DNA from: Betaproteobacteria bacterium | GTDB taxonomy: Bacteria; Pseudomonadota; Gammaproteobacteria; Burkholderiales; Thiobacillaceae | Direction: 5' to 3' | Length of the DNA: 43,342 nucleotides | Assembly: GCA_016873935.1 (NCBI GenBank) | Contig: VGVT01000020.1 | Coordinates: 1-43,342 of the forward strand | Shown here: one piece after another, positions 15,541 through 38,817 of the stretch | How the letters are laid out: every line of letters starts with the position of its first letter | How positions within the stretch are numbered: position 1 is the first letter of the stretch | Program-made: the position numbers and the translations under genes | The notes under the pieces: generated by a model | What the model was told of the DNA's origin: nothing | The model's database searches: none | The model's input: only the letters and a program-made list of their open reading frames with translations

Positions 15541-17112
15541 ATGGATGTCCGCCCCCAGCTCGATCAACTGGAACGCCTGAACGCCATCGGCGTGGCCCTG
15601 TCGCGCGAGGAGAACATCGACCATCTGCTGGAACAGATCCTGCTCTCCGCCATGCAGCTCACGCATGCCGACGCGGGCACCGTCTACCGCGTCAACGCGG
15701 CACGCGCCCTGGAGTTCGCCATCCTCGTCAACCGCAGCCTCGGCCTGCGCCTGGGCGGCCGCCAGGGCGGCGAGATCGACCTGCCGGACATACCCCTGTT
15801 CGACGCCGACGGGCGGCCCAACGACCGCATGGTGGCGGCGCACGCCGCGGCCCGGCAGAAGACCGTGCACATCGACGACGTCGACCGCGCCGAGGGATTC
15901 GATTTCTCCGGCACGCGCGAATTCAACCGGCGCACCGGCTATGTCTCCCGCGCCTTCCTCACCGTCCCTCTCATCGACCATCACCGCGAAACCATCGGCG
16001 TGTTGCAGCTCATCAACGCCCTCGACCCCGACAGCGGCGCCATCCGCGGCTTCACCGAGGAGGAACGGCGGCTGGCCGAGTCGCTCGCCTCGCAGGCCGC
16101 CATCGCCTATACCAAGCGGCGGCTCATCGACCAACTGGAGGAGTTGTTCGAAGCCCTGGTGAACCTGGTCAACACCGCCATCGACGAGAAATCCCCCTAC
16201 ACCAGCAAGCACTGCGAACGCGTGCCGGTGCTCACCATGATGATCGCCGAGGCCGCCCACCGCGCGACAAGCGGTCCGCTCGCGGACTTCCGCATGGACG
16301 ACCGCGACCGTCGCGAACTGCGCGTCGCCGCCCTCATGCACGACTGCGGCAAGATCACCACGCCGGTGCACGTGATGGACAAGGCCACCAAGCTGCAAAC
16401 CCTGTGCGACCGCATCCATCTGCTCGACACCCGCTTCGAGGTGCTGCGCCGGGACGCCGACATCGCCCGTCTGCAAGCGCTGCTGCAACGGCCCGGCGAG
16501 CGCGAAAGCATCGAGGCCGACTACCGCGCGCGCCTCGCGAGCCTGGACGCGGACCGGGACTTCCTGCGCCGCTGCAACCTCGGCGGCGAGACCATGGCGG
16601 CGGCCGACCAGGAACGCGTCTCGCGCATCGCCGGCGAGCGCTGGCGCGACGCCGACGGGGTCGAGCAAGCCTTCCTCACGGCCGACGAGGAAGCTTGCCT
16701 GCGCATTCCCAAGGGCACCCTCACCGAGGCCGAGCGCGAGGTCATCAACCACCACATCGTCGCCACCGTGCGCATGCTGGAGGCGTTGCCCTGGCCCCGC
16801 CACCTGCGGCGCGTGCCGGAATTCGCCGGCGGCCACCACGAGCGCGTCGACGGCAAGGGTTATCCGAAAGGGCTCACCGGCGCGCAGATGTCGGTGCAGG
16901 CGCGCGCCATGGCCATCGCCGACATCTTCGAGGCCCTCACCGCCTGCGACCGCCCCTACAAGCAGGCCAAGCCGGTCTCCGCCTGCCTGGACATCATGCG
17001 TCGCATGGCGGAGGAAGGTCACATCGACCCCGACCTCTTCGCCGTGTTCCTGGCGGAGGACATCCCCATGGCTTACGCGCGCGAGCACCTGCCGCCCGAA
17101 CAGTGGAGCTGA
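15541..17112 (+). CDS. GAF/HD-GYP domain protein, probable c-di-GMP phosphodiesterase
   Basis: A 523-aa soluble regulator. A GAF sensor domain (about 15-190) is followed by an HD-GYP domain (about 205-500), a family that hydrolyses cyclic di-GMP. The metal-binding HD pair is at 267-268 (ALMHDCGKITTP), and the GYP signature lies in GHHERVDGKGYPKG at 431-444, with HH at 404-405. About 110 residues, rich in Arg/Asp/Glu and probably helical, separate the HD segment from the second histidine cluster; this spacing is longer than in compact HD-GYP domains. The ATG is preceded by GAGG. It lies 81 bases upstream of the TIR operon but looks independent of it. Confidence 0.9.
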   Translation: MDVRPQLDQLERLNAIGVALSREENIDHLLEQILLSAMQLTHADAGTVYRVNAARALEFAILVNRSLGLRLGGRQGGEIDLPDIPLFDADGRPNDRMVAAHAAARQKTVHIDDVDRAEGFDFSGTREFNRRTGYVSRAFLTVPLIDHHRETIGVLQLINALDPDSGAIRGFTEEERRLAESLASQAAIAYTKRRLIDQLEELFEALVNLVNTAIDEKSPYTSKHCERVPVLTMMIAEAAHRATSGPLADFRMDDRDRRELRVAALMHDCGKITTPVHVMDKATKLQTLCDRIHLLDTRFEVLRRDADIARLQALLQRPGERESIEADYRARLASLDADRDFLRRCNLGGETMAAADQERVSRIAGERWRDADGVEQAFLTADEEACLRIPKGTLTEAEREVINHHIVATVRMLEALPWPRHLRRVPEFAGGHHERVDGKGYPKGLTGAQMSVQARAMAIADIFEALTACDRPYKQAKPVSACLDIMRRMAEEGHIDPDLFAVFLAEDIPMAYAREHLPPEQWS

Positions 17113-17150
17113 AAGCCGCGCCGCGCGCGCATGCCGATTTCCACACGGGC

Positions 17151-17159
17151 TGCTAAAGT
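17151..17159 (+). promoter_or_regulatory. Possible promoter of the TIR/patatin operon
   Basis: TGCTAAAGT resembles an extended -10 box, 34 bases before the ATG at 17194, in the only gap (81 bases) before the operon. No convincing -35 box is present. Confidence 0.3.
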
Positions 17160-17193
17160 CTGAGTATCGCGCTCAAGAATAACGAGGAGATCC

Positions 17194-19140
17194 ATGGCAT
17201 CGCACGTGTTCGTCGCCATGCCTTACGGCCGCAAGCAGGACATCGAGTTCGACGCGGTGTACGCCGACTATCTGAAACCCGCCCTGGAAGAGGCCGGCTT
17301 CCAGGTATTCCGCGCCGACGAGGAGCGGCGCGCGGGCGATATCCGCACCGACATGTTCCAGGAACTGCTGCTCGCCGACCTGGTGGTGGTGGACCTCAGC
17401 ATCGACAACCCCAACGTCTGGTACGAGCTGGGCGTGCGCCACGCCCTGCGCGCGCGCGGCGTGCTGTTGGTGCAGAGCGCGCGCGCCTACCAGCCCTTCG
17501 ACGTCTACACCGAGCGCAAGCTGCGTTACCACCTGCTGGAGGGGCGTCCCGATCCCGCCCATCTGGCCGCCGACCGCGCCACCCTCGGCGCGATGGCGCG
17601 CGCCACCATGGAATCCTGGCACGGCCGCCCCATCAGCCCCGTCTATCACCTGCTGCGCGACCTGCGCGAGCCGCCCTGGCGCGACCTGCTGCTGGCCGGC
17701 GACAACGAGTTCCGCGCCGCCTACGAGGGCTGGCACCGGCGCATGGAGGTGGCGCGCAAGCGCAACCGGCCCGGTGACGTGCTGGTGCTGGCGGAAGAGA
17801 CCCCCATCTGGGCTCTGCGACTGGAGGCCTGCCGCGCCGCCGGCAAGGCGCTGCTCAAGCTGCGCCAGTACCGCCTGGCCCTGGAACAGGTGGAGGCGGC
17901 GCTGGAACTCGCGCCCGAAGACATCGGCTGCCAGCGCGACAAGGCCCTGCTGCTGGGACGCCTGGGCCGGCACGACGCCGCCCTGGAATGGGCCGAGAAT
18001 CTGCTCCGGCTGCGCCCGCTGGAAGCGGAGGACTGGTGCCTCCTCGGACGCGTCGAGAAGGACGACTGGGTGCGTCGCTGGCGCCTGCCGGACGCGACGC
18101 CCGAGGCCATGCGCGAGGGCGCCGCGCGGGAGATCGCGCAACTCGTGCAGGCCGTCGAGCCCTACATGAACGCCTTCATCCGCGACCCCGCGCATTTCTA
18201 TGCCGGCATCAACGCCTGCACCCTGCGCCACCTCCAGCTCCACCTGGGTGGCAAGCTCAAGCAGCCCGCCAGCCTGCCCAACCTGGAAGGCGGCGTCACC
18301 TGGGCCTGCCTGGCGGCCCTGGAACGCCAGCCCGAGGACTACTGGACGCGCGCCAGCTGGGCCGAACTCAACGTCCTGCTGAGCCCGCCGGAGCAGGTCG
18401 AAGAAGCCTGGCGCGAGGCGGTCACGGTCGCCGACAAGGACTGGTTCGCGCTCGATTCCAGCCGCCAGCAGTTGCTCATCCTGCGCGATCTCGGCTTCCG
18501 TCCCGAGGCGGTGGCCGCCGCCCTGGGCGTCGTCGACGCCGAGATCGCCGACCTGGAGGCGCCCTGGCGGCCGCGCCGGGTGTTCCTGTTCAGCGGCCAC
18601 ATGCTCGACGCGACGGACCGGCCCGAAGCGCGTTTCCCCGCCGACAAGGAAGCGGCGGCGGCGCGCGCCATCGCCGACAAGCTCGCGGAGCTGGGCATGG
18701 GCGCCGACGATCTCGCCCTGTGCGGCGGCGCCTGCGGCGGCGACACGCTGTTCGCCGAGGCCGCCCTGGCGCGCGGCTGCCGCGTCGAGCTGTTCCTCCA
18801 GTTCGAGGAGCCGGAATTCCTCCAGGCTTCGGTCGCCTTCGCCGGGGAATCCTGGGTGGACCGCTACTACGCCCTGAAGGAGCGCCACGACCGGGTGGCC
18901 ATCCGCGTGCAGCCCGAGGAACTGGGCGCGCCGCCGGCGGGGATGAATCCCTATGAGCGCAACAATCTCTGGCAGTTGTTCACCGCCCTGGCGCACGGTC
19001 CCGACCAGGTGCGCTTCGTCGCCCTCTGGAACGGTCAGGGCGGCAAGGGGCCGGGCGGCACGCAGCACATGGTGGAGACGGTGAAGCAATACGCCGGGCG
19101 CGTCGCCATCCTCGACACCCGTGCCCTCTTCGCGAACTGA
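17194..19140 (+). CDS. Deoxyribosyltransferase/TIR-like + TPR/TRAFs-binding-like + SLOG-like protein
   Basis: A 648-aa protein of three parts. Residues 1-120 form a Rossmann-like domain of the nucleoside 2-deoxyribosyltransferase/TIR-like group: HVFVAMPYGRKQDIEFDAVY, then DLVVVDLSIDNPNVWYELGV with a candidate catalytic Glu. Residues about 195-430 are helical with TPR-like pairs (YRLALEQVEAALELAPED, RHDAALEWAENLLRLRPLEA) and resemble the TRAFs-binding domain (DUF4071) region. Residues about 460-600 resemble a SLOG nucleotide-ligand-binding domain: RRVFLFSGHMLD, LALCGGACGGDTLFAEAALARG. SLOG domains bind NAD-derived signals in Thoeris. GAGGAG precedes the ATG. First gene of a seven-gene operon; a sensor or signal-linked role is inferred, not shown. 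Confidence 0.78.
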   Translation: MASHVFVAMPYGRKQDIEFDAVYADYLKPALEEAGFQVFRADEERRAGDIRTDMFQELLLADLVVVDLSIDNPNVWYELGVRHALRARGVLLVQSARAYQPFDVYTERKLRYHLLEGRPDPAHLAADRATLGAMARATMESWHGRPISPVYHLLRDLREPPWRDLLLAGDNEFRAAYEGWHRRMEVARKRNRPGDVLVLAEETPIWALRLEACRAAGKALLKLRQYRLALEQVEAALELAPEDIGCQRDKALLLGRLGRHDAALEWAENLLRLRPLEAEDWCLLGRVEKDDWVRRWRLPDATPEAMREGAAREIAQLVQAVEPYMNAFIRDPAHFYAGINACTLRHLQLHLGGKLKQPASLPNLEGGVTWACLAALERQPEDYWTRASWAELNVLLSPPEQVEEAWREAVTVADKDWFALDSSRQQLLILRDLGFRPEAVAAALGVVDAEIADLEAPWRPRRVFLFSGHMLDATDRPEARFPADKEAAAARAIADKLAELGMGADDLALCGGACGGDTLFAEAALARGCRVELFLQFEEPEFLQASVAFAGESWVDRYYALKERHDRVAIRVQPEELGAPPAGMNPYERNNLWQLFTALAHGPDQVRFVALWNGQGGKGPGGTQHMVETVKQYAGRVAILDTRALFAN

Positions 19141-19200
19141 GCTCCCAGGCATGGCGAAGCGCTCCCGCATCCCATCCCCGACGCGCACGGAGCCGAAGCC

Positions 19201-20778
19201 TTGATCTCCACCGGCGCCCTGCTGTCCGCCCTGCTCGCCGCGGTGTTCCTGTCCGGCCTGCTTGCCTGGCTGGTGGCGGCCCTGTACCGCCGCCGCATGG
19301 TGGCGCTGATGCGCGCCGGCCCGGCCCCGGACGCCGCCCGGCCGGCGGCGGACGAATCCTTCACCCTACTCGAGCAGCGGCCAGCGGTCGCCCTCGACCT
19401 GGCGGCCAACCGCCGCGCCAGCCGGCGCTTCCTGCTCGCCCTCGGCGGCGTCAGCCTGCTGGTCGGCCTCACCCAGTCCTGGCTGGCGCTGCTGTTCGTC
19501 TACGACGATCCCCACTTCTCCCTCAACCGCCTGCTGGTGCTGGGCCTGGTCTACGCCTGGCCGATGACCCTGGCCTGGGGCCTGGCCCTGCGCTGGTCCT
19601 TGGCGCGCACCCTGGGCGCCGTGCTGGCCTACATGGCGGTCATGGCCGTGCTGGTGATGTTGCGCTCCAACGAAAACCAGTCCTTCGCCCAGGTCGCCGG
19701 CTGGCTGGGCAGCGTGGTCGCCCTGCCCATGCTGGTCACCCTGGCGATCGCCGCCAGCGGCCGCATCCGCGCGGTGGCGCCCTACCTGCTGCCGCCCCTG
19801 CTGGTTCTCACCACCGCCTCCGTGCTGGTCTTGCAGGTCATGGCCGCCGGCGCCGCCGATCCGCCCGCCTGGGTGTACACGCTGGTCGGCTGGCTGGGTG
19901 CCTACGGCGCCATCGTCGCCCTCGCCTTCGTGCCCTGGCTGCTGCTGGCCTGGCCGGTGTACGCCCTGGCGCGCTGGCTGGCGGCGGCCTATCGGGCCAA
20001 GCGCTTCTCCGACCTGGCTTACCTGTTCGCCGCCTACTGGTTCGTGGTGCTGTCCGCCAGCACCCTGACCGCGGTGGAGGGCAACGGCGCCGCAGGCCTC
20101 ACCCAGCTGTTGCCCTGGCTCTGGCTGCCGGTCGCCGGCGCGGCCCTGCGCGGCTGGCTGCGGCCCGCCGCGCCGCCCGCCACCCTGCTGGTGCTGCGCG
20201 TGTTCCAGCGCGACGCCCAGGTGGAGCGGCTGTTCGACCGGGTGGTGGAACGCTGGCGCCTGACCGGCAACACCCTGCTCATCGCCGGCACCGACCTGGT
20301 CAGCCGCACCCTGGACGCGGACGAGTTGTTCGCCTTCCTGAACGGCCGCCTGCGCGAACGTTTCATCGCCGACGAAACGGAATTGCCGCGCCGCATGGCC
20401 GAACTGGACCTGCAACCCGACCCGGACGGCCGCTACCGGGTGAACGAACATTACTGCTTCGACGCCACCTGGCAGGCCGCCCTGCGCGCCCTGGTGGCGC
20501 GCAGCGACGTGGTGCTCATGGATCTGCGCGGTTTCCGCGCCGAGAACCGCGGCTGCCGCTTCGAGCTGGGCGTGCTGGCGGCGGCCTCGCATCTGCGCCG
20601 CGTGGTGCTGCTGCACGACGCCGCCACCGCCAGGGACATCGCCCAGGCCGATCTGGCCGACGCGCCGCCCGGACGTTTTACCTGGCTGCGCGCCGACACC
20701 CTGAACCCCGCGACAGCCGGCGCGGCGCTGGCTGCGCTGTTCGCCGCCGGCACGGACGACAAAGTGGAGAACACGTAA
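19201..20778 (+). CDS. Polytopic membrane protein with C-terminal TIR/deoxyribosyltransferase-like domain
   Basis: A 525-aa protein that I cannot assign to a named family. Residues 1-320 contain about nine or ten hydrophobic helices (for example 5-28, 75-100, 111-130, 192-217, 224-262). Residues 325-525 form a soluble domain: TLLVLRVFQRDAQVERLFDR, then DVVLMDLRGFRAENRGCRFE followed by LGVLAAASHLRRVVLLHD. That last block parallels the DLS..NPNVWYELG strand-helix element of the preceding gene, suggesting a related Rossmann-type fold. The start is a TTG at 19201 with GGAG upstream; other starts lie too far inside the first helix. It sits 60 bases after the SLOG-containing gene. It could be a membrane effector or receptor. 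Confidence 0.75.
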   Translation: MISTGALLSALLAAVFLSGLLAWLVAALYRRRMVALMRAGPAPDAARPAADESFTLLEQRPAVALDLAANRRASRRFLLALGGVSLLVGLTQSWLALLFVYDDPHFSLNRLLVLGLVYAWPMTLAWGLALRWSLARTLGAVLAYMAVMAVLVMLRSNENQSFAQVAGWLGSVVALPMLVTLAIAASGRIRAVAPYLLPPLLVLTTASVLVLQVMAAGAADPPAWVYTLVGWLGAYGAIVALAFVPWLLLAWPVYALARWLAAAYRAKRFSDLAYLFAAYWFVVLSASTLTAVEGNGAAGLTQLLPWLWLPVAGAALRGWLRPAAPPATLLVLRVFQRDAQVERLFDRVVERWRLTGNTLLIAGTDLVSRTLDADELFAFLNGRLRERFIADETELPRRMAELDLQPDPDGRYRVNEHYCFDATWQAALRALVARSDVVLMDLRGFRAENRGCRFELGVLAAASHLRRVVLLHDAATARDIAQADLADAPPGRFTWLRADTLNPATAGAALAALFAAGTDDKVENT

Positions 20779-20789
20779 AGGAGAACCCA

Positions 20790-21935
20790 ATGGCGAAAGG
20801 TTTGCGCTACCAGGATGACTATCTCGTCGGCGGTCCCGCCCGCGCCCGCGTCACCCCCAACTTCACGCTCGCCGAATACGCCGGCGCCGACGGCGGGGTG
20901 CGCGTGCACCGGGAGCTGGTGGCCGCGGTGCAGATCCTGCGCGACCAGCTCGGCGCGCCCCTGGAAATCGCCGGCATGGCCCCGGCACACGGCCTTGGCG
21001 CCGGATTGCAGGGGCGCTTCGCCTGGCTTGCGGCGGCCGACGCCGCCGGCCTCGAGGCCGCCGCCCTGCGGCTATTGCGCGAGGGTGATCTGGCTCGGGT
21101 GGAGGCGCGCTCCGGCAAGCTCTACGTGGAAATGCCCGATCCCGCCCACCTGCCCGCCCTGGCCGCCGAGCGCGCCCTCGACCGCGCCATCGCGGTGACC
21201 GCCGGCTTCGAGACCTCCGGCGATCCCTACCTGCAGGTCACCGGCAACTTCGACGGCGCCGGCCTGTCCTTCGGTCCGCTCCAGGTCAACTTCAAGACCG
21301 GCACCCTGCAGGAGCTGTTCCGCCGCTTCCGCGCCCGCGACGAGGCGCGGCTGAAGGCCTGCTTCGGCCCCCTGTGGACAGAATGGCTGGCGGTGCTGGC
21401 CCTGCCCTCGCGCGTGCGCCAGGTGGCCTGGGCCGACGCCCTCAGCCGCGGCCCGCGCAAGGCCGACTTCGACACGCGCTGGAAGGCGGCTTTGCAATCC
21501 GTCGGCCGGGAGCCCGCCTTCCGCGCCGAAATGCTGCGCTACGCCTACGACACCTACGGCCGCAAGCTGGTGGTGGCGCTGTCCTGGCTGCGCGGCCTGC
21601 TGCCCGTGCGCATCGCCAACCTGCGCTGCCTGGCCGCGCTGTATGACCTGTGCGTGCAGCAGGGCAGCCTGGACCGCGCGCACGACGCCATCCGCCGGCG
21701 GGTGGCGCGCGAGCGGCCCGCCGACGAATTCCAGCTCACCCGCATCGCCGTCGAGGAGCGTGGCCGCGCCGCCGACCCACGCTGGCGCGCCGACTGCGTC
21801 AGCCGCCGCCTGTGCATCCTGGCGCGTGAGCCGGTGGCGGTGAGCGAGGCCGGCGAGCGCGCGGAACGCGACAACCCGAATCTCTACCTGCTGCGCAACG
21901 CGCCGGTCAGCCAGATCGAGCGCTATCTGCTGTGA
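20790..21935 (+). CDS. Probable peptidoglycan-active protein (M15-like plus lysozyme/chitosanase-like)
   Basis: A 381-aa protein with no signal peptide. Residues about 20-110 resemble a peptidase M15-type D-Ala-D-Ala carboxypeptidase-like fold (TPNFTLAEYAGADGG, LVAAVQILRDQLGAPLEIAG), though the zinc-binding His/Asp/His set is not clearly complete. Residues about 130-260 resemble a lysozyme/chitosanase-like glycosidase: GFETSGDPYLQVTGNFDGAG then LSFGPLQVNFKTGTLQELF, with the Glu of GFETS as candidate catalytic acid. The C-terminal 100 residues are unassigned. AAAGGAG precedes the ATG, 11 bases after the membrane protein. Without an export signal it could act on the wall after lysis or through another route; this is uncertain. 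Confidence 0.65.
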   Translation: MAKGLRYQDDYLVGGPARARVTPNFTLAEYAGADGGVRVHRELVAAVQILRDQLGAPLEIAGMAPAHGLGAGLQGRFAWLAAADAAGLEAAALRLLREGDLARVEARSGKLYVEMPDPAHLPALAAERALDRAIAVTAGFETSGDPYLQVTGNFDGAGLSFGPLQVNFKTGTLQELFRRFRARDEARLKACFGPLWTEWLAVLALPSRVRQVAWADALSRGPRKADFDTRWKAALQSVGREPAFRAEMLRYAYDTYGRKLVVALSWLRGLLPVRIANLRCLAALYDLCVQQGSLDRAHDAIRRRVARERPADEFQLTRIAVEERGRAADPRWRADCVSRRLCILAREPVAVSEAGERAERDNPNLYLLRNAPVSQIERYLL

Positions 21936-21964
21936 CCCGACGAACCGGAAAAGGAGTCCCCGCC

Positions 21965-23134
21965 ATGCCCACCTCCCTGCACGAACGCCTGCACGCACCC
22001 GGCCCGAAGAAGATCCTCGCCTGCGACGGCGGCGGCATCCTCGGCCTCATCAGCGTGGAAATCCTGGCCAAGCTGGAAGCCGACCTGCGCGCCGCACGCA
22101 ACGACCCCAAGCTGGTGCTGGCCGACTTCTTCGACTTCGCCTGCGGCACCAGTACCGGCGCCATCATCGCCGCCTGCGTGTCTGCGGGCATGGCGATGGC
22201 CGACATCCGCAAGTTCTACGTGGACAGCGGCGCGCAGATGTTCGACAAGGCCTCCGTGTTCAAGCGCCTGCGCTACAGCTACGAGGACGAGGCCCTGGCC
22301 GAGAAGCTGCGCGTCGAACTCAACCGCGCCCTCGGCCACGCCCCCAGCGATCCTCCCGCCACCCTCGGCGACCCAGGCCTGCGCAGCCTGCTCATGATGG
22401 TCCTGCGCAACCACAGCACCGACTCGCCCTGGCCGGTGTCCAACAACCCCGCCGCCAAGTACAACCAGCGCGGCCGCCGCGACTGCAACCTGGACCTGCC
22501 GCTGTGGCAGTTGGTGCGCGCCAGCACCGCCGCGCCCACCTTCTTCCCGCCGGAGGTGGTGACCTTCGCCCCCGGCACGCCGGAGGAATACCAGTTCGTG
22601 TTCGTCGACGGCGGCGTCACCACCTACAACAACCCCGCCTTCCTCGCCTTCCAGATGGCCACCGCCGCGCCCTACCACCTGAACTGGGCCACCGGCGCCG
22701 AGCGCATGCTGATCGTCTCGGTGGGCACCGGCAACGCGGCGCGGGCGCGGCCGGACCTGGATGCCGAGGATCTCTGGCTGCTCGACCATGCCAAGAGCAT
22801 CCCCTCCGCCCTCATGAACGCCGCCTCCGCCGGCTGGGACATGGCCTGCCGCATGCTCGGCGAATGCCGCCACGGCGGCCCCATCGACCGCGAGGTGGGT
22901 GACATGCTGGCGGCGCCGGGGGAGTCCAACTGGACCGGCGCCAAGCAGTTCGCCTACGCCCGCTACGACCCCGACGTTTCCGCCGCCGGCCTGGCCGCCC
23001 TGGGCCTTGCCGACATCGACCCGGCCAGCGTGCAGGTGATGGATTCGATCAAGCACATCGCCGCCATCCAGCGGGTGGGCGCGACCTACGCGAACGCCCA
23101 CGTGCGTCGCGAACACCTGCGGGGCTTCGCCTGA
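21965..23134 (+). CDS. Patatin-like phospholipase
   Basis: A 389-aa lipid acyl hydrolase of the patatin family, predicted to cleave membrane phospholipids. The oxyanion loop is CDGGGILGL (20-28), the nucleophile is Ser63 in GTSTG, and the catalytic Asp215 lies in VDGGVTTYNNP, so the Ser-Asp dyad is complete. There is no signal peptide, as in the cytosolic CBASS effector CapV, but no cyclic-nucleotide synthase is encoded nearby. The start is ATG 21965 with AAGGAG upstream. Its TGA overlaps the ATG of the next TIR gene (TGATG), so translation is coupled. Membrane damage is a plausible output of this operon. Confidence 0.92.
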   Translation: MPTSLHERLHAPGPKKILACDGGGILGLISVEILAKLEADLRAARNDPKLVLADFFDFACGTSTGAIIAACVSAGMAMADIRKFYVDSGAQMFDKASVFKRLRYSYEDEALAEKLRVELNRALGHAPSDPPATLGDPGLRSLLMMVLRNHSTDSPWPVSNNPAAKYNQRGRRDCNLDLPLWQLVRASTAAPTFFPPEVVTFAPGTPEEYQFVFVDGGVTTYNNPAFLAFQMATAAPYHLNWATGAERMLIVSVGTGNAARARPDLDAEDLWLLDHAKSIPSALMNAASAGWDMACRMLGECRHGGPIDREVGDMLAAPGESNWTGAKQFAYARYDPDVSAAGLAALGLADIDPASVQVMDSIKHIAAIQRVGATYANAHVRREHLRGFA

Positions 23135-25488
23135 TGGGCGGTATCTTCATCAGCTACCGCCGCGAGGACGCCGCCGGCCATGCCGGCCGGCTGTTCGACC
23201 GTCTGAAGGCGCGCTTCGGCCCGGCCGCCGTGTTCATGGACGTCGAGGGCATCGACGCCGGCGTGGATTTCGTCGAGCGCATCGACGCCGCCGTGGGCAG
23301 TTGCGACGTCCTTCTCGCCGTCATCGGCCGCCATTGGCTGGACGCGCGCAACGCCGACGGCGCGCGCCGGCTCGACGACCCGCGCGACTTCGTGCGCCTG
23401 GAAACCGGCGCCGCCCTGGCGCGCGGGATCCGCGTCATCCCGGTGCTGGTGGAAGGCGCGGCGATGCCGACGCAGGAGGCCCTGCCCGAGGCCCTGCGGC
23501 CGCTCGCCCGCCGCCAGGCGGTGGAACTGCGCGACAGCCGCTGGGACGCGGACGTGGAACACCTGCTGCGAACCCTGGAGCCGGTTCTCGTCCCCGCCTC
23601 TCCCACCAAGGCGAAGCCCTCCCCGCGGACGGCCTGGCTGGCCGGCGCCCTGGTCCTGGCGCTGGCGGGCATCGGCCTGGGCCTGTGGTCGCGCGGGCCC
23701 GGGCAGGCTCCTGGCGATCCGCACGATGCCCCGCCTGTCTCCCTGGCCCCACCAACCTCCGTGGCCACGCAGCCGCCGGCGGCATCCGTCCAGGTCGAAG
23801 CCGCAGCGCCCGCGCCAACGCCGGCCCGGCCCACATCCCGCCCAGAACGCCAGGTGCCGGCGATCGCGGCCGTACAAGCGCCACCGGCGGTCCCGGCCGA
23901 ACCCGCGCCCGCCGCGCCCCCGGCAGCGGCGATTCCCGCGACCGCTCCGGCTGCGGCGGCTCCCACCCGCGCCACTGCCGAGAAACCGGCCGGCACCGCC
24001 CCGGCCGCGTCACCCCAGGCGAAAAAGCCGAAGGCGCTGATCCACGCGCTGGGCCTGCCCGGCAACCGGGCTTTCTGGAACCGGGAGGAGTCGCCCGGCT
24101 ACAGCGCGAAAATGGCCACCCTGTTCCGCGACCGACTGCTGGAACAGGCCGGCGATCGCTTCAGCGTGGTGCAGGGATCGCCCGGCGAGACCGCGCGCGG
24201 CCTGCTGGAAGGCGGGCCACCCGCGCGCGAACAGGCCTGCCGGGATACCGGCGCCAGCGTGCTCTGGGTCGCCCTCGCGCGCCAGGAATTCAGCATCTCT
24301 CAAGCGGAAAGCGCGCACTGGCCGGAACTGCGCCTGGCCGCGCTGCCCTGCGACGGCGGCGAGCGCCGCGAACACCGGGTGGGTCTGGCGCCTGGCCGCG
24401 CTGCCCTGCGACGGCGGCGAGCGCCGCGAACACCGGGTGGGTCTGGCGCCCGGCCGCGACGACGCCTTTCCCTTCGCGACGGACATGGGCAAGGCCATGG
24501 GCGCCTTCGCCCGCGAACATCTGCACCTCATGAGGTAGGCGGCATGGCCGGCATCTTCCTCAGCTACCGCCGCGACGACAGCGCCGGCTTCGCCGGCCGC
24601 CTGGCCGACGCCCTGGAGGCTGAATTCGGCTCCGGCAGCGTGTTCCGCGACGTCGACGACATCCATCCCGGCGAGGATTTCGTCGCCGCCATCCAGCGCC
24701 ATCTGGAGCGGGTGGATAGCGTGCTGGTGATGATCGGCCCGCGCTGGCTGGTGGCGGACGCACTGGGCCGTCGCCGCCTGGACGAGACCGGCGACTTCGT
24801 GCGCCGGGAGATCGAGGCGGCACTCGCCACCGGCAAGCCGGTCATCCCGCTGCTGGTGGGCGGCGCTGTGATGCCCTCCGAGGCCGACCTGCCCGACGCC
24901 ATCGCCGGCCTGGCCCGGCGTCAGGCGGCAGTCCTGTCCGATGACCGCTGGAGTGCCGACCTGGCGCGCCTGGTCGCCGTCCTTGCCACGCTTGTCCCCG
25001 GGCGCGGCCGGATCGCGCGGCGGCGGCGCCTGTTGCTGGCGGGTGCCACCCTGGTGCCGGCCGCCCTGCTCGCGACCTGGCTGTTGCCAAAGTGGCCGCC
25101 GTCAACGCCGCCGTCAACGCCGCCGGCCAGCCCCGGTCTGCAAGCCGCCGACATCGCCGGGCGCTGGACCGCCCGCGTCAAATACGACTGGGGCGACGAG
25201 CATGACGAGGTGTTCGAATTCAAGGATATGGGCGGACGCCTGCACGGCACCGCGAGCTATCTCACCGGCCGCCTCGCCATCGAGGGGGCGACCCTGGAGG
25301 GCGAATGGCTGCGCTTCTCCACGCGCAGCCAGCAGATGCTCGGCGGCGATCAACCATGGAAGGAGGTCACCCACCGCTACACCGGCCGGGTCACCGCCGA
25401 CGGCATCCATTTCACGCTGCAAAGCGGCGGCGGCTACACGATCCACCCACCGGTGGAATTCGTCGCCCGCCGCGCACAGGCCGGCTAG
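23134..25488 (+). CDS. TIR-domain membrane protein, fused in frame to a second TIR protein by a duplication
   Basis: As written the frame encodes 784 aa. Residues 1-150 are a TIR domain (GGIFISYRRED, VFMDVEGIDAGVDF, LLAVIGRHWLD, DFVRLETGAAL with candidate catalytic Glu90). Residues 167-185 are a membrane helix, then a Pro/Ala-rich linker (about 190-305) and a C-terminal domain (about 306-418). A 58-bp tandem duplication then shifts the frame: residues 419-470 are an Arg-rich out-of-frame stretch leading into a second complete TIR protein (471-784). With one copy removed the gene would end at the TAG at 24536-24538, giving 448 aa, 5 bases before the next ATG. The fusion is therefore recent, or a sequencing error. 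The start codon overlaps the patatin stop. Confidence 0.8.
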   Translation: MGGIFISYRREDAAGHAGRLFDRLKARFGPAAVFMDVEGIDAGVDFVERIDAAVGSCDVLLAVIGRHWLDARNADGARRLDDPRDFVRLETGAALARGIRVIPVLVEGAAMPTQEALPEALRPLARRQAVELRDSRWDADVEHLLRTLEPVLVPASPTKAKPSPRTAWLAGALVLALAGIGLGLWSRGPGQAPGDPHDAPPVSLAPPTSVATQPPAASVQVEAAAPAPTPARPTSRPERQVPAIAAVQAPPAVPAEPAPAAPPAAAIPATAPAAAAPTRATAEKPAGTAPAASPQAKKPKALIHALGLPGNRAFWNREESPGYSAKMATLFRDRLLEQAGDRFSVVQGSPGETARGLLEGGPPAREQACRDTGASVLWVALARQEFSISQAESAHWPELRLAALPCDGGERREHRVGLAPGRAALRRRRAPRTPGGSGARPRRRLSLRDGHGQGHGRLRPRTSAPHEVGGMAGIFLSYRRDDSAGFAGRLADALEAEFGSGSVFRDVDDIHPGEDFVAAIQRHLERVDSVLVMIGPRWLVADALGRRRLDETGDFVRREIEAALATGKPVIPLLVGGAVMPSEADLPDAIAGLARRQAAVLSDDRWSADLARLVAVLATLVPGRGRIARRRRLLLAGATLVPAALLATWLLPKWPPSTPPSTPPASPGLQAADIAGRWTARVKYDWGDEHDEVFEFKDMGGRLHGTASYLTGRLAIEGATLEGEWLRFSTRSQQMLGGDQPWKEVTHRYTGRVTADGIHFTLQSGGGYTIHPPVEFVARRAQAG
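24330..24458 (+). repeat. 58-bp perfect tandem duplication with partial third copy
   Basis: Bases 24330-24387 and 24388-24445 are identical, and 24446-24458 repeats the first 13 bases with one mismatch (gcgcctggccgcg versus gcgcccggccgcg). That pre-existing imperfect repeat, 58 bases apart in the single-copy ancestor, would explain the duplication by replication slippage. Because 58 is not a multiple of three, it changes the reading frame. Confidence 0.95.
24544..25488 (+). CDS. TIR-domain membrane protein 2 (internal start of the fused frame)
   Basis: A 314-aa protein that probably still initiates at its own ATG, with GAGG 8 bases upstream, in the same frame as the fusion. The TIR domain (1-150) shows AGIFLSYRRDDSAGFAGRL, VFRDVDDIHPGEDF, VMIGPRWL and DFVRREIEAAL (candidate catalytic Glu89). 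A basic stretch and membrane helix follow (about 157-182), then a short PSTPPSTPP linker made by a 12-base tandem repeat. A C-terminal beta-rich domain (about 203-314) follows, beginning IAGRWTARVKYDWGDEHDE; its pattern of short strands and glycines suggests a lipocalin-like or similar barrel, probably outside the cytoplasmic membrane. Ligand unknown. Confidence 0.82.
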   Translation: MAGIFLSYRRDDSAGFAGRLADALEAEFGSGSVFRDVDDIHPGEDFVAAIQRHLERVDSVLVMIGPRWLVADALGRRRLDETGDFVRREIEAALATGKPVIPLLVGGAVMPSEADLPDAIAGLARRQAAVLSDDRWSADLARLVAVLATLVPGRGRIARRRRLLLAGATLVPAALLATWLLPKWPPSTPPSTPPASPGLQAADIAGRWTARVKYDWGDEHDEVFEFKDMGGRLHGTASYLTGRLAIEGATLEGEWLRFSTRSQQMLGGDQPWKEVTHRYTGRVTADGIHFTLQSGGGYTIHPPVEFVARRAQAG

Positions 25489-25529
25489 CGCGCCGACCTT
25501 GCTATCCTGAACAGGGAAAGGAACCAAGC

Positions 25530-26486
25530 ATGCAGGGCATCTTCATCAGCTACCGTCGCCAGGACAGCCAGAGCGCCGCCGGCCGCCTGGCCGATCACCT
25601 CAAGGAACACCTGCCAGGGGTGCCCATCTTCCGGGATGTGGAGACCATCGAGCCGGGCGTGGATTTCGTCGAGGCCATCGGCCGCGCCCTGCATTCCTGC
25701 GGCGTGCTGCTGGCGGTCATCGGCCCGCGCTGGGCGAGCGCGCAGGACGATGCCGGCCGCCGCCGCCTGGACAACCCCAACGACTACACCCGCCTGGAGA
25801 TCGCCACCGCCCTGGCGCGCGCCGACGTGCGGGTGATTCCCGTGCTGGTGGAGGGCGCGCAGATGCCGGCGGGCGAAACCCTGTCCGACGACCTCAAGGC
25901 CCTGTCCCGGCGCAACGCCATCGAGCTCACCGACAAGCGCTGGGAATACGACGTCGCGCAACTGGTGGAGACCCTGAAGAAGGCGCTGGGCATTCTGCCC
26001 GGCCCCAGGCCGGAGCCAACACCGCCCGTACCACCTGTACCGCCCATGCCGGCGGCACAATCCTGGAAGAAATGGGCCTGGGGTATCGGCGGCCTGGTGA
26101 TCCTGGCGGCGGCTCTGGATGAAAGCGGCCTTCTCGAGCCGGATCCGCCCATGCCGGACACTTTTCAGGCCGCGCCGCCAGTGGACCATGGCCAAGCCGC
26201 GCCAGCCGCCCTCAACCTGGCCGGCGCCTGGGCGGACGCGGAGGGCGGTAACTACCAGCTGGTGCAACAGGGCGACCGCATCGGCTTCCAGGGCATGAGT
26301 CCGCACGGCCCGGTCATGGGGCGCGGTCTGCTGCGCGGCAACCAGCTGGTACTGGAATACACCCTGGACGGCCAGCCTTACCAGGCCGCCCTGGCAGCGG
26401 GCGCGGACGGCATGAGCCTGACCGGCGCGTATCACGACCCCGCCACCGGCGAGAGCGGCCAGGTGGCCCTGCGACGGGTGCGCTGA
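25530..26486 (+). CDS. TIR-domain membrane protein 3
   Basis: A 318-aa paralogue of the two preceding TIR proteins. The TIR domain (1-155) carries QGIFISYRRQDS, IFRDVETIEPGVDF, LLAVIGPRWAS and DYTRLEIATAL (candidate catalytic Glu90). A proline-rich linker (about 158-174) leads to a weak membrane segment (about 182-196). The C-terminal beta-rich domain (about 215-318) starts NLAGAWADAEGGNYQLVQQG and resembles that of TIR protein 2 in layout but not closely in sequence. It begins 41 bases after TIR 2, with an AAAGGA ribosome-binding site and a possible extended -10 (TGCTATCCT, 25500-25508), so it may have its own promoter. Last gene of the operon. Confidence 0.85.
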   Translation: MQGIFISYRRQDSQSAAGRLADHLKEHLPGVPIFRDVETIEPGVDFVEAIGRALHSCGVLLAVIGPRWASAQDDAGRRRLDNPNDYTRLEIATALARADVRVIPVLVEGAQMPAGETLSDDLKALSRRNAIELTDKRWEYDVAQLVETLKKALGILPGPRPEPTPPVPPVPPMPAAQSWKKWAWGIGGLVILAAALDESGLLEPDPPMPDTFQAAPPVDHGQAAPAALNLAGAWADAEGGNYQLVQQGDRIGFQGMSPHGPVMGRGLLRGNQLVLEYTLDGQPYQAALAAGADGMSLTGAYHDPATGESGQVALRRVR

Positions 26487-26498
26487 ACGGGCGGGGCG

Positions 26499-26807
26499 TC
26501 AGCCCGCTTCCACCCACACCTGCCCGTTTTCCACCTTGGTGTTGTAGGTGCGAATCGGGCAGTCCGCCGGTTCGTTGAGGGGCTTTCCGCTGGCCAGATC
26601 GAAATAGCTGCCGTGCAGGGAGCACTTGATGCTGCGGCCCTTCACGCAGCCGAACCAGAGCGAGTAGTCCTCGTGGCTGCAGAGTTCGTCCACACAGTAG
26701 TGGCCGCCTTCCGCGTGCACCAGCAAGAGGGGATTGCCGGCGGGGGCGACGCGCTTCATCTGCCCCACTCCCAGTTCGTCTTCGCGCGCGACCGCGTGCC
26801 AGGCCAT
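26499..26807 (-). CDS. Rieske-type [2Fe-2S] ferredoxin
   Basis: A 102-aa soluble electron carrier with a Rieske cluster: ligands Cys43 and His45 (LCSHED) and Cys62 and His65 (KCSLHGS). The overall pattern matches the small ferredoxins of ring-hydroxylating dioxygenases and NirD-like proteins (CPIRTYNTKVENGQVWVE at the end). No dioxygenase is nearby. The ATG at 26807 is chosen because the Rieske fold starts almost at once (AWHAVAREDEL). It follows the TrpD-like gene by 10 bases on the same strand, so the two are probably cotranscribed, and it converges on the TIR operon. Confidence 0.9.
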   Translation of the reverse strand: MAWHAVAREDELGVGQMKRVAPAGNPLLLVHAEGGHYCVDELCSHEDYSLWFGCVKGRSIKCSLHGSYFDLASGKPLNEPADCPIRTYNTKVENGQVWVEAG

Positions 26808-35667: not shown

Positions 35668-36504
35668 TCATCCGCGGTGCCAGCTGAACTTCCGGATCAG
35701 CATCACGCAGATCGTATCCAGCACGTAGCCGACGGCGCCGATGATCACGACCAGGGCCATCAGGCTGGAATACTCCAGGCTTTCGCGGGCATCCTGGATG
35801 GCGTAGCCGAAGCCGGATGTGACGCCCAGGAATTCGGCCGGGATGATCACGATCCAGGCCACGCCCAGGGCCAGCCGGATGCCGGTGAGGATGTCGAAGG
35901 TGATGGCCGGGATGATGATGCGGGTCACCATGTGCCAGGGCTTGGCGCCGAGATTGCGCGCCACCTTGAACCAGTTCGGATCGACCTTCGCCAACCCGGC
36001 CGCCGTGGCGAACGCCACCGGCCACACCGCGGCGACCGCGATCAGGAAGATGATCGCCTCCTCCCACCCGGCGAACACCACCACGGCGATCGGCTCCCAG
36101 GACAACGGACTGATCATGCGCAGGAACTGGAAGGGCACGTCGGTGAGTTGCTGGAACCAGCGGATGCGCCCCATCAGGATGCCGATCGGCACACCGATGG
36201 CGATCGCGAGCAGCATCCCCATGCCCAGGCGATAACCGCTGGTCTCCAGAGCGGCGGGAATCGTACCGTCCGCCCACAATCCGGGCATCGCCTCGAACGC
36301 GGCCTTGGGCGCGAAATCCGAGAACTGGGACATGGAGGGATCCTGGGTGATGAAGTGGATGCCCAGCCACCAGGCCGCGAACAGAACCGCCAGGCCCCCG
36401 AAGAAGTGCACGGATTTCCCAGCGGTGGATTTCAGCATCCGGGAGATGCAATTGCCGCTCACACCCGCGCTTACCACACCGGATACGGCCGCGTCATCGC
36501 TCAT
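35668..36504 (-). CDS. ABC transporter permease (NitT/TauT type), second copy
   Basis: A 278-aa inner-membrane permease with about six helices. The cytoplasmic coupling-loop motif of importers (EAA loop) is VARNLGAKPWHMVTRIIIPA. The short N-terminal cytosolic part contains a Cys. It is clearly related to the permease just upstream (shared GMxLAIAIGVPIGxLMGR and FQFLRMISPLSWxP), so the pair is a tandem duplication that probably works as a heterodimer. GGAGG precedes the ATG at 36504. Closest class: nitrate/sulfonate/cyanate importers; the substrate is inferred from context to be thiocyanate. Confidence 0.9.
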   Translation of the reverse strand: MSDDAAVSGVVSAGVSGNCISRMLKSTAGKSVHFFGGLAVLFAAWWLGIHFITQDPSMSQFSDFAPKAAFEAMPGLWADGTIPAALETSGYRLGMGMLLAIAIGVPIGILMGRIRWFQQLTDVPFQFLRMISPLSWEPIAVVVFAGWEEAIIFLIAVAAVWPVAFATAAGLAKVDPNWFKVARNLGAKPWHMVTRIIIPAITFDILTGIRLALGVAWIVIIPAEFLGVTSGFGYAIQDARESLEYSSLMALVVIIGAVGYVLDTICVMLIRKFSWHRG

Positions 36505-36550
36505 CTCGATTCCTCCCCCGCGCCGGTCCGGATATGTGCAATCGGATTCA

Positions 36551-37387
36551 TCAGTTCGCGCCTCCACGGTGCCAGCTGAACCGCTTGATCAACATCACCA
36601 GCGTGCCGTCGAGCACGTAGCCGATGCAGCCGATGGTGAGCACCAGGGCGGTCAGATGGTTGTAGGACAGGGTCTCTCGCGCATCCTCGATGGCGTAGCC
36701 GAGGCCGGACGTGACGCCCAGATACTCGGCCGGAACCAGGACGATCCAGGCCACGCCCAGCGCCAGCCGGATGCCGGAGAAGATGTCGAAGGCGATCGCC
36801 GGCATGATGATCTTTGTCAGCATCTGCAAGGGCGAGGCACCGAGGTTGCGCGCCACCTTGAACCAGGCCGGGTCGACCTTGGCGAGCCCCGCCGCCGTGG
36901 CGAAAATGACTGGCCACACCGAGGCGATGGCGATGAGGAAGATGATCGAGCCATCCCAGGTCGCGAACACCAGTACCGCCAGGGGCATCCAGGACAAGGG
37001 GCTGATCATGCGCAGGAACTGGAAGGGCGAGTTGCTGTACTGCTGGAACCACTTCACCCGGCCCATGAGAACGCCGATCGGCACGCCGATGGCGATGGCG
37101 ATGCCCAAGCCCATGCCCAGACGATAACCGCTGGCGATCGAGGCGGCCTGGATCTTGCCGGCGGCCCATAACTGAGGAAAGGCTTCCAGCGTGGGAATCA
37201 GGCCGAAGGTGGCAAAGTTGGTGGTCCTGGGGTTGTTCTCCAGCATAGACCCCGCGATCAGCCAAAGGACGGCAAGCACCGCGATGCCGGCGACGCCCCA
37301 CAGCAGACGTCTCAGGCCCTGCGCGGCCGCGAGCCCGGCAGCGCCGGGCTCCCCGGCCGCGCCGGCTGGCGTGGCCGCTTCGCTCAT
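36551..37387 (-). CDS. ABC transporter permease (NitT/TauT type), first copy
   Basis: A 278-aa permease with a 25-residue cytosolic Ala/Gly-rich N-terminus and about six membrane helices. The EAA loop is VARNLGASPLQMLTKIIMPA, and WFQQYSNSPFQFLRMISPLS is conserved with the second permease. The ATG overlaps the stop of the binding-protein gene (ATGA), so translation is coupled. Together with the other permease and the ATPase it forms the membrane part of an importer next to thiocyanate hydrolase genes. Confidence 0.9.
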   Translation of the reverse strand: MSEAATPAGAAGEPGAAGLAAAQGLRRLLWGVAGIAVLAVLWLIAGSMLENNPRTTNFATFGLIPTLEAFPQLWAAGKIQAASIASGYRLGMGLGIAIAIGVPIGVLMGRVKWFQQYSNSPFQFLRMISPLSWMPLAVLVFATWDGSIIFLIAIASVWPVIFATAAGLAKVDPAWFKVARNLGASPLQMLTKIIMPAIAFDIFSGIRLALGVAWIVLVPAEYLGVTSGLGYAIEDARETLSYNHLTALVLTIGCIGYVLDGTLVMLIKRFSWHRGGAN

Positions 37388-38817
37388 AGCTTGATCACCT
37401 CCTGACGCTCGAAGGGATTGCCCTTTTGCGGCACGCTGAGATCCCACTTCCACTTCGGATTGTCGTCCAGGGCCTTCTTGATGTAGGTGTACTGGACCAA
37501 GTCCTTGGCCACGAAATCAGGCGTGAGTTTCTTCACGAAATCGATTTCGCCGCCCACCAGGGTGGTCTTCATTTCGGTGACCACCTGCTTGGTCGCGCTG
37601 GGGAACGGCCAGCCCTGGAAGTTGATGCGACTCTGTTCCCAGTCGACGTTCTTGATGGCGGCCGGCTGCGCATAGTCGGCGGGCTCGTAGAACATGAGGG
37701 CGCGCTCGACCACTTCCTGAGGGAACGGCAGATACTTCTTGCCATCCTTGGACAACATCTGCGCCATGGCCTTGCGATTGGCGCCCAGGTGGAGTTGGGC
37801 CTTGACGATGGCGTTGTGGATGCCCTGTGCCCAGGCGGCGCGCGCGGGATCCATGGCGTCGTCCTCGTGCATGACGACCACGCAGCAGGGGTGGCCCTTC
37901 CAGACGTCGCCAGTGAAGCGCAACATCTCGCCGCCCGCCTTGAGTTCGCCCAGTGCGTTGAACGGTTCGGCGACACAGTAGCCATCGATCTGTCCGGCCG
38001 CGAGCGCGGGTGGCATGTCCGGCGGGTTGAGCACCAGAAGGTTGACCTCGTTCGGTGCGAGCTTGGCGTCCTGCGGACGGATCACCGGGGTGAGGCCGGC
38101 ATCGCGCATGATCTTCTGGGAGATGATGTTGTGGATGGAGTACCAATAGGGCACGGCGAACTGCTTGCCGCCGAGATCCTTGGGCTCCTTGATGTTGCTC
38201 TTCTTGCTGACGATGATGCCGGAGCCGTTGGTGTGGTTCCAGGCGGTGATCTTCACCGGGAACTTGTTGTTGTAGCGCATGTAGATGGGCACCGGGATCA
38301 GCAGGTGCGTGAGATTGAAGCGCTGCGCCGAGAAAGCCTCCACCAGCGGCGACCAGCCACGAATCAGGGTGGGCGGCTCGGAGTCGATGCCTTCTTTCTT
38401 GAAGAAGCCCATCTCGTGCGCGACGAGCAGGGTGGCGGCGTCGGTGATGGGGATGTAGCCGATCTTCACCACCGGGTCGAAGGGCTTGGTGAATTTCTGC
38501 GCCGCGGCCTTTTTCGCCTGGGCGAATGCCGAAGCCGAGGACATCATGCCGCCCAGCCCCCCCAAAGCGGCGATCCCCGCCATCTTCAGGAGATCCCGAC
38601 GGCTGACGCCACTACCGAGCACGGAACTGAACAAGGGATCGTAATCGAGCGACAGACGGGGGTCGGATTTGCCATCGGCGATATCCGGGTCATCCGGCAT
38701 CATCGCGCTGAGGCGCGGATCCACCGAACCGGAGTTGCCACACTTGCCGCAGGAACATCCATCCACATGCACCAGACCGCGCGGCTTCAGGTGGATATCG
38801 TCAAGATATTTCTTCAT
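37384..38817 (-). CDS. ABC transporter substrate-binding protein with Tat signal and Cys-rich N-terminal extension
   Basis: A 477-aa NrtA/CmpA/SsuA-type periplasmic binding protein. A Tat motif SRRDLLK (72-78) and hydrophobic stretch GIAALGGLGG precede the mature protein (from about 101), which has IGYIPITDAATLLVAHEMGF, the opening typical of nitrate/bicarbonate/sulfonate binders. Unusually, about 70 residues lie before the Tat motif and include a cysteine cluster CSCGKC (21-26). This extension may bind metal or a cluster before export, or the start may be annotated too early, although no good alternative ATG is seen close to the Tat motif. Likely ligand: thiocyanate or a related anion. Confidence 0.88.
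   Translation of the reverse strand: MKKYLDDIHLKPRGLVHVDGCSCGKCGNSGSVDPRLSAMMPDDPDIADGKSDPRLSLDYDPLFSSVLGSGVSRRDLLKMAGIAALGGLGGMMSSASAFAQAKKAAAQKFTKPFDPVVKIGYIPITDAATLLVAHEMGFFKKEGIDSEPPTLIRGWSPLVEAFSAQRFNLTHLLIPVPIYMRYNNKFPVKITAWNHTNGSGIIVSKKSNIKEPKDLGGKQFAVPYWYSIHNIISQKIMRDAGLTPVIRPQDAKLAPNEVNLLVLNPPDMPPALAAGQIDGYCVAEPFNALGELKAGGEMLRFTGDVWKGHPCCVVVMHEDDAMDPARAAWAQGIHNAIVKAQLHLGANRKAMAQMLSKDGKKYLPFPQEVVERALMFYEPADYAQPAAIKNVDWEQSRINFQGWPFPSATKQVVTEMKTTLVGGEIDFVKKLTPDFVAKDLVQYTYIKKALDDNPKWKWDLSVPQKGNPFERQEVIKL

Follow-up and report, generated by a model that had tools for sequence, protein, structure and literature searches.

What does a compact run of seven genes on a betaproteobacterial contig do for its host? 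The run, genes A to G, lies on contig VGVT01000020.1 of a Thiobacillaceae genome (assembly GCA_016873935.1). The window analysed is this whole contig, 43,342 nucleotides long, from a 2.70-Mb draft genome. The answer favoured here, with a little less than even confidence, is a modular locus of immune type, acquired horizontally, whose action ends in self-lysis. A sequence-only reading of the same DNA had proposed an undescribed operon in which membrane-anchored TIR proteins signal to a SLOG sensor and to lipase and wall-lysis effectors. The features are listed below, with lengths in amino acids (aa); ORF stands for open reading frame.

17194-26486, plus strand: seven-gene block A to G, co-directional and tightly packed
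17194..19140, plus strand: gene A, 648 aa; DrHyd/TIR-like, TPR-S and SLOG-like parts
19201..20778, plus strand: gene B, 525 aa; seven hydrophobic segments by hydropathy and a C-terminal Nuc_deoxyrib_tr-like domain
20790..21935, plus strand: gene C, 381 aa; endolysin-like, no hydrophobic N-terminus
21965..23134, plus strand: gene D, 389 aa; patatin-like phospholipase, likely start 21965
23134..25488, plus strand: joined E/F ORF, 784 aa; E from 23134, F with its own ATG at 24544
24330..24458, plus strand: tandem repeat, perfect 58-bp unit in 2.2 copies, inside the first TIR gene
25530..26486, plus strand: gene G, 318 aa; third TIR protein, likely start 25530, frame checked
17113..26498: accessory block, between an HD-GYP-type gene (ending at 17112) and a Rieske-type gene (26499-26807, minus strand)

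Gene D is predicted by profile and by its GxSxG and DGG motifs to be a member of the patatin family. It scores 79.4 bits against Patatin (PF01734; Pfam cut-off 27.7), and the motifs are intact, GTSTG at residue 61 and DGG at 215. Among solved sequences patatin-17 is its best match and CapV the next. Gene C has no Pfam match. In a fold model, residues ~6-121 weakly match a hedgehog/M15 fold and residues ~123-366 match a GH46-chitosanase/VgrG3 fold, with the candidate catalytic acids E141 and D155 conserved. The protein lacks a signal peptide. A lipase plus a wall hydrolase are likely effectors, as had been proposed. In Luteimonas sp. FCS-9 (L064:10001-10798), a C-like domain lies inside a 1100-aa ORF, near ORFs that by eye resemble TssK and VgrG of type VI secretion systems; this setting fits the VgrG3 fold match of C.

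The joined E/F ORF matches TIR_2 (PF13676) over two stretches with 109.4 bits, and G matches it with 59.6 bits (cut-off 28 for both). E aligns with the TIR domain of SARM1, including a Glu that we take to be catalytic, and a Glu stands at the equivalent place in F and G by eye. By profile and by this Glu, all three are predicted TIR proteins. Hydropathy predicts one membrane segment in E (near residue 166) and in F (near 163), each followed by a C-terminal domain. No membrane segment scored in G, where the hydropathy maximum falls within the TIR domain. The earlier description of three membrane-anchored TIR proteins thus stands for the TIR domains of all three and for the anchors of E and F, but not for an anchor in G. 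The idea that these proteins may sense the envelope has one basis, the predicted membrane segment and C-terminal domain of E and F. The 58-bp repeat shifts the frame, and E and F are therefore fused into one ORF here. In the sister locus L026 they are separate, and the first TIR protein has 445 aa. The repeat may be a real allele, a phase switch or an assembly artefact.

SARM1 is an NAD+ hydrolase. Its alignment with E favours an alternative that we regard as unlikely: the TIR proteins (and B) kill by depleting NAD+, with A as a scaffold or an enzyme in the same complex, the patatin and the lysin are separate additive effectors, and no diffusible messenger is involved. DUF4062 TIR-like proteins also deplete NAD+ (PMC13174449), and a DUF4062 gene adjoins the C homologue in locus L028. 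The domains of gene A point the other way. Its strongest sequence match is to TPR-S (PF20308; 64.8 bits, Pfam cut-off 27.6), and its N-terminus weakly matches TIR_2 (15.3 bits). The fold model gives a DNPH1-like part, a TPR-S part whose best fold match is ASK1, and a YpsA-like SLOG part; the layout of A is ASK1-like, with 8qgy aligning to residues 7-456. The Foldseek matches listed for A are helical proteins, TPR proteins among them, and the DNPH1 and YpsA matches come from a second comparison, a weaker test of those parts than of the TPR part. The sequence-only reading was probably right about the SLOG domain, on the fold model, and about the DrHyd/TIR-like part, but it missed TPR-S. Gene A carries two domains of nucleotide-sensor type, TPR-S and SLOG, and a giant CHAT protein of related loci also carries TPR-S. 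This suggests that a signal is being read, which argues against killing by NAD+ depletion alone.

Burroughs and Aravind reportedly predicted in 2020 that TPR-S is a sensor of NAD-derived signals, with kinship to ASK1. To our knowledge, the bacterial role of TPR-S is still a prediction. Because sensing of NAD-derived signals by TPR-S had already been proposed, calling the system undescribed was too strong.

Gene B starts with TTG. Its C-terminus scores below threshold against Nuc_deoxyrib_tr in the Pfam scan (18.3 bits, cut-off 28.8) and, searched alone, against PF05014 (20.5 bits). A Glu is invariant in this domain across 18 aligned rows. In hhalign, the C-terminal part of B aligns only weakly with the N-terminal part of A (probability 1.5%, E 0.033).

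How might these proteins act together? In the self-lysis reading, the TIR proteins E, F and G, perhaps with membrane protein B, would be triggered, probably at the envelope, and would convert NAD+ to an ADP-ribose-type signal. A would read the signal through its TPR-S domain, its SLOG domain or both, and would license patatin D to attack the inner membrane. The signal-less cytoplasmic lysin C could then pass the damaged membrane and cut peptidoglycan, and the cell would burst before the invader finishes. Phage endolysins cross the membrane after holin action, and the passage of C through a patatin-damaged membrane is likened to this. The signal, its sensing, the order of activation, the lysis and a phage trigger are what we infer. 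Self-lysis gated by a signal, with signal-less lysins released by membrane damage, would be the simplest account. What is observed are the domain identities, the retained motifs, the absence of the block as a unit in one relative, co-occurrence, partial linkage, and unrelated wall hydrolases nearby.

The stop codon of D and the start of E overlap in TGATG (23132-23136), and the remaining intergenic gaps are 11-60 bases. The description of a tight seven-gene block therefore fits in direction, spacing and this stop-start overlap, except that E and F are one ORF in this assembly. In the same-genus genome G019 (L215), the flank genes of HD-GYP, Rieske and PRT types are direct neighbours, ~50 bp apart; these labels are by-eye readings and come from no family call. 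Because the flank genes directly adjoin there, the block was gained or lost as a single unit. This empty-site evidence comes from one genome, and L216 and L217 (G018 and G023) have only the left flank gene in the stretch examined. The site is occupied in the sister genome G013 (L026; metagenome-assembled genome X2_MaxBin.002), with 92-98% protein identity to the window genes. In every gene, differences between the two fall most often on third codon positions, from 24 of 47 in F, where this is least clear, to 49 of 66 in D; for E, the comparison runs only up to its repeat.

Is the purpose defence? C is present in 8 of 117 genomes of the family (two as fragments) and B in 5, the window's own genome counted. 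This patchiness, the absence of the block as a unit, the plasmid carriage of relatives and the kinship to immune families suggest a defence purpose. No plasmid-borne B or C matched at E 1e-5 among 72,556 plasmids. A-like parts occur in 58 plasmid records, 31 of them predicted conjugative, and none covers 80% of A. On the Rhizobium plasmid CP050083 (L239:4460-8878), a 1473-aa TIR - nSTAND1 - WD40 protein lies between a giant-related CHAT protein and a SLOG gene.

Location in a defence island, which the earlier reading had raised, finds no clear support, as few sampled flank proteins match PADLOC models and the listed Pfam families are mostly housekeeping. At E<=1e-15, PADLOC gave 13 families among 130 of the 266 flank ORFs against 7 among 110 of the 221 comparison ORFs, a comparison set that wrongly contains four ORFs of L035, a system locus. 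Pfam gave 158 families on the flanks, and the 25 shown are mostly housekeeping. These flanks lend some weight to a non-defence programmed-lysis or envelope-stress circuit, for instance one that frees DNA or answers envelope damage; the earlier reading had also allowed for a non-defence role. The membrane segment of E and F, with a C-terminal domain that would lie outside, and effectors that look aimed at membrane and wall are consistent with it as well. Such a circuit is nevertheless improbable in our judgement, since the patchy distribution, the lack of the whole block in a relative, the plasmid-borne A-like parts and the shuffling of effectors resemble conflict systems.

The relatives of the locus form a modular family in which A or its domains, B, patatin, TIR, caspase, the CHAT/TPR-S giant and C reappear in varying sets. 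A genome-contig scan with C gave 44 loci, and at 19 of them one or more further components are present within the stretch examined. The partners are TIR (10), CHAT giant (9), patatin (5), caspase (5) and B (2), with the N-terminal part of A at 5 loci and its SLOG part at 5. The TIR count rests on matches to E/F in L026 (the sister locus), L029, L034, L035, L042, L043, L050, L055, L062 and L063. A TIR-NB-ARC protein in L028 comes on top of these ten, and the giant there is only a fragment. The sole partner in L058 is an A-type N-terminal match on the opposite strand, 7 kb off, and L068 is a 3.9-kb contig. The giant examined, in L034 (1823 aa), consists of DUF7379, CHAT and TPR-S. L027 has a separate caspase gene by Pfam. 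The order TIR - giant - C recurs in L034, L035, L042 and L050, where the giant match ends 20-30 bp before C. In L028 (6165-12495), the C homologue is flanked by a TIR - weak NB-ARC - TPR protein and by a protein of DUF4062, a TIR-like NADase family.

A survey of the taxonomic order covered 399 genomes. A or part of it was found in 25 (14 full length, the window included), B in 16 and the CHAT giant in 24; the A and B counts include the window's own genome. The cut-offs were at least 80 bits for A (any match: 65 genomes) and more than 200 bits for the giant (any match: 43), and all 16 B genomes were used. The components co-occur more than expected by chance as far as tested, in line with the earlier expectation. 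A and B share 11 genomes (expected 1.0, p 2e-11), A and the giant 12 (expected 1.5, p 3e-10), and B and the giant 7 (expected 0.96, p 9e-6). The Fisher and binomial tests used in the analysis ignore kinship. C was too partial in this set to be included, being full length in the window only, with partial matches in 10 other genomes.

Every piece is also found without the others, and much of the genome-level co-occurrence is unlinked. The pieces might therefore be a stack of independent accessory modules (a TIR set, A with the patatin, B, and C) that occupy a common hotspot without working together. We hold this for the least probable of the alternatives, given the stop-start overlap, the short gaps, and the recurrence of the same pairs in different orders and orientations across several lineages.

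Do other wall hydrolases take the place of C? On the conjugative Rhizobium leguminosarum plasmid CP050566, a cluster runs from a SLOG gene through a TPR-S protein with an A-like N-terminus, a hypothetical protein, SLATT_1, an N-acetylmuramidase with a peptidoglycan-binding domain and a patatin to a second TPR-S protein with an A-like N-terminus. The patatin is 49% identical to D over its length, and TIR genes on the opposite strand border the cluster on both sides. In betaproteobacterial genomes, GH19-type proteins lie near B, SLOG or the giant in L124 (just below the GH19 cut-off), L147 (opposite strand) and L221. An M15_3 protein lies between the giant and B in L121, and an M15_4 protein lies beside the giant, on the opposite strand, in L220. 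Of nine such hydrolases checked for N-terminal hydrophobicity, six lack a hydrophobic start (0.45-0.82), two give intermediate values (1.29) and the one in L147 a higher value (1.75); the L218 M15_3 sequence was translated from an arbitrary upstream base.

What recurs is a set of NAD-type enzymes (TIR, DrHyd), receptors of nucleotide type (TPR-S, SLOG) and proteins directed at the membrane (patatin, SLATT) or at the wall (C, GH19, M15, muramidase). A broader proposal, put forward only tentatively, is a widespread immune pathway in which TIR or DrHyd enzymes would feed ASK1-like TPR-S/SLOG receptors, which would in turn unleash a lipase and an interchangeable signal-less endolysin of GH46-like, GH19, M15 or muramidase type. 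The lysis step of the phage would thereby be executed early. The smallest version would be TIR - CHAT/TPR-S protease - lysin, in which activation of the lysin may fall to the protease.

Among 37 genomes with 65 core positions, 3 of 15 GH19 hits (expected 0.07) and 5 of 25 M15_3 hits (expected 0.11) lie <=5 kb from a core position, which speaks for the self-lysis reading. A number of results weigh against it. Both hydrolase families, like PG_binding_1, were picked after first sightings next to core genes. Of the five M15_3 cases, two (G182 and G282:C309) are near weak core matches, and the other three (G012, G329 and G443) are related. PG_binding_1 is little enriched (2 of 49, both in the GH19 proteins; expected 0.22), with the run made on 34 of the 37 genomes and the expectation taken from the 37-genome total. 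Linkage is also limited. No other component accompanies C at 25 of its 44 loci, and C is for this reason not dedicated to the system; 12 of these 25 are named Zoogloea, Zoogloeaceae, Denitromonas, Cognatazoarcus or Rhodocyclaceae, and L064-L067 and L069 are distant partial matches. A and B are physically close in 5 of their 11 shared genomes (that of the window plus four from a single genus), and the remainder hold only the SLOG or N-terminal part of A. A and the giant are near each other on one contig in 4 of 12 genomes, B and the giant in 2 of 7. At the 13 full-length A loci besides the window, some on short contigs, patatin is found at 5 and B at 4; at those four, all from a single genus, the arrangement is convergent, in one case with the patatin between. 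B also stands among housekeeping-type genes (L118 and L119). In the window itself, the first TIR gene is frame-disturbed in this assembly and the flanks are not rich in known defence genes. Neither the caspase nor the CHAT giant was found in this genome, which leaves the activation of C and D here unexplained.

The identities of the TIR and patatin proteins (by Pfam), of the putative SLOG domain in A and of the putative glycan hydrolase in C (by fold models) agree with those first proposed, as does the absence of SIR2 and CD-NTase among the six window ORFs scanned. Which known system comes closest? Thoeris (ThsA/ThsB) shares TIR enzymes and a YpsA-like SLOG domain with the locus; here, however, SLOG is fused to DrHyd-TPR-S, and a lipase and a lysin replace the NAD-depleting SIR2. 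Thoeris proper was rejected, as the six ORFs gave no match to SIR2 (SIR2-SLOG in ThsA), and so was type III, with 73.1 and 38.6 bits against the ThcB4 equivalog (cut-off 220). CBASS with a CapV-type effector shares a patatin-like phospholipase with intact motifs but differs by its CD-NTase, which the window proteins scanned lack; CBASS was rejected on this count. Patatin D reaches 100.6 bits against the CBASS_lipase equivalog, below its cut-off of 200. The predicted TPR-S conflict systems reportedly share TPR-S, TIR-type enzymes, a logic of NAD-derived signals and the ASK1 kinship, with which the fold match agrees.

EAD1 systems carry lysozyme or papain-like peptidoglycan peptidase domains, and their immune effectors have been suggested to attack peptidoglycan (PMC7159879). 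That idea is shared, but the hydrolases there are EAD1-associated, whereas here they stand alone and come from several unrelated families beside TIR, TPR-S, SLOG and patatin genes. Swarozyc is a DUF4062 TIR-like NADase (PMC13174449). The logic of a TIR-like NADase and the DUF4062 gene in L028 recall it; the window operon differs in having no DUF4062 match by Pfam. In open-licence papers, which are weak evidence of absence, no account was recognised of this gene set, the DrHyd-TPR-S-SLOG protein, membrane protein B, lysin C or the interchangeable hydrolases.

If the proposal is true, the locus would represent a bacterial immune circuit ending in wall lysis by endolysin-like proteins, an outcome known to us only as a suggestion (PMC7159879). 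It would also make TPR-S, which occurs in the human cell-death kinase ASK1 too, accessible to experiments. The alternative hydrolases beside the same core genes would be natural replicates for testing.

Minor observations concern the neighbours of the core genes and the rest of the window. An alpha-amylase-family protein lies near core genes in L025 (3795-5759; PF00128) and, by similarity, in L027 (12742-14676) and L147 (12390-14186), and is partial in L020. Look-alike lipoprotein-type proteins, recognised by eye, occur in CHAT-giant clusters at L221:1646-2662 and L030:8314-9270, in the latter after C; Pfam gave no family for the first and only chance-level matches for the second. Small proteins that look alike by eye lie near TIR genes at L129:795-1331 and L221:1140-1646, and the L129 one has no Pfam match. 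In L126, the TIR label does not agree with some called ORFs in strand or extent. ARAGORN returned no tRNA for the window, and neither sigma-70 promoter nor terminator scans rose above shuffled sequences. At 35668-37453 of the window, two adjacent minus-strand ORFs of ~300 aa belong to one sequence cluster and are perhaps a tandem duplication.

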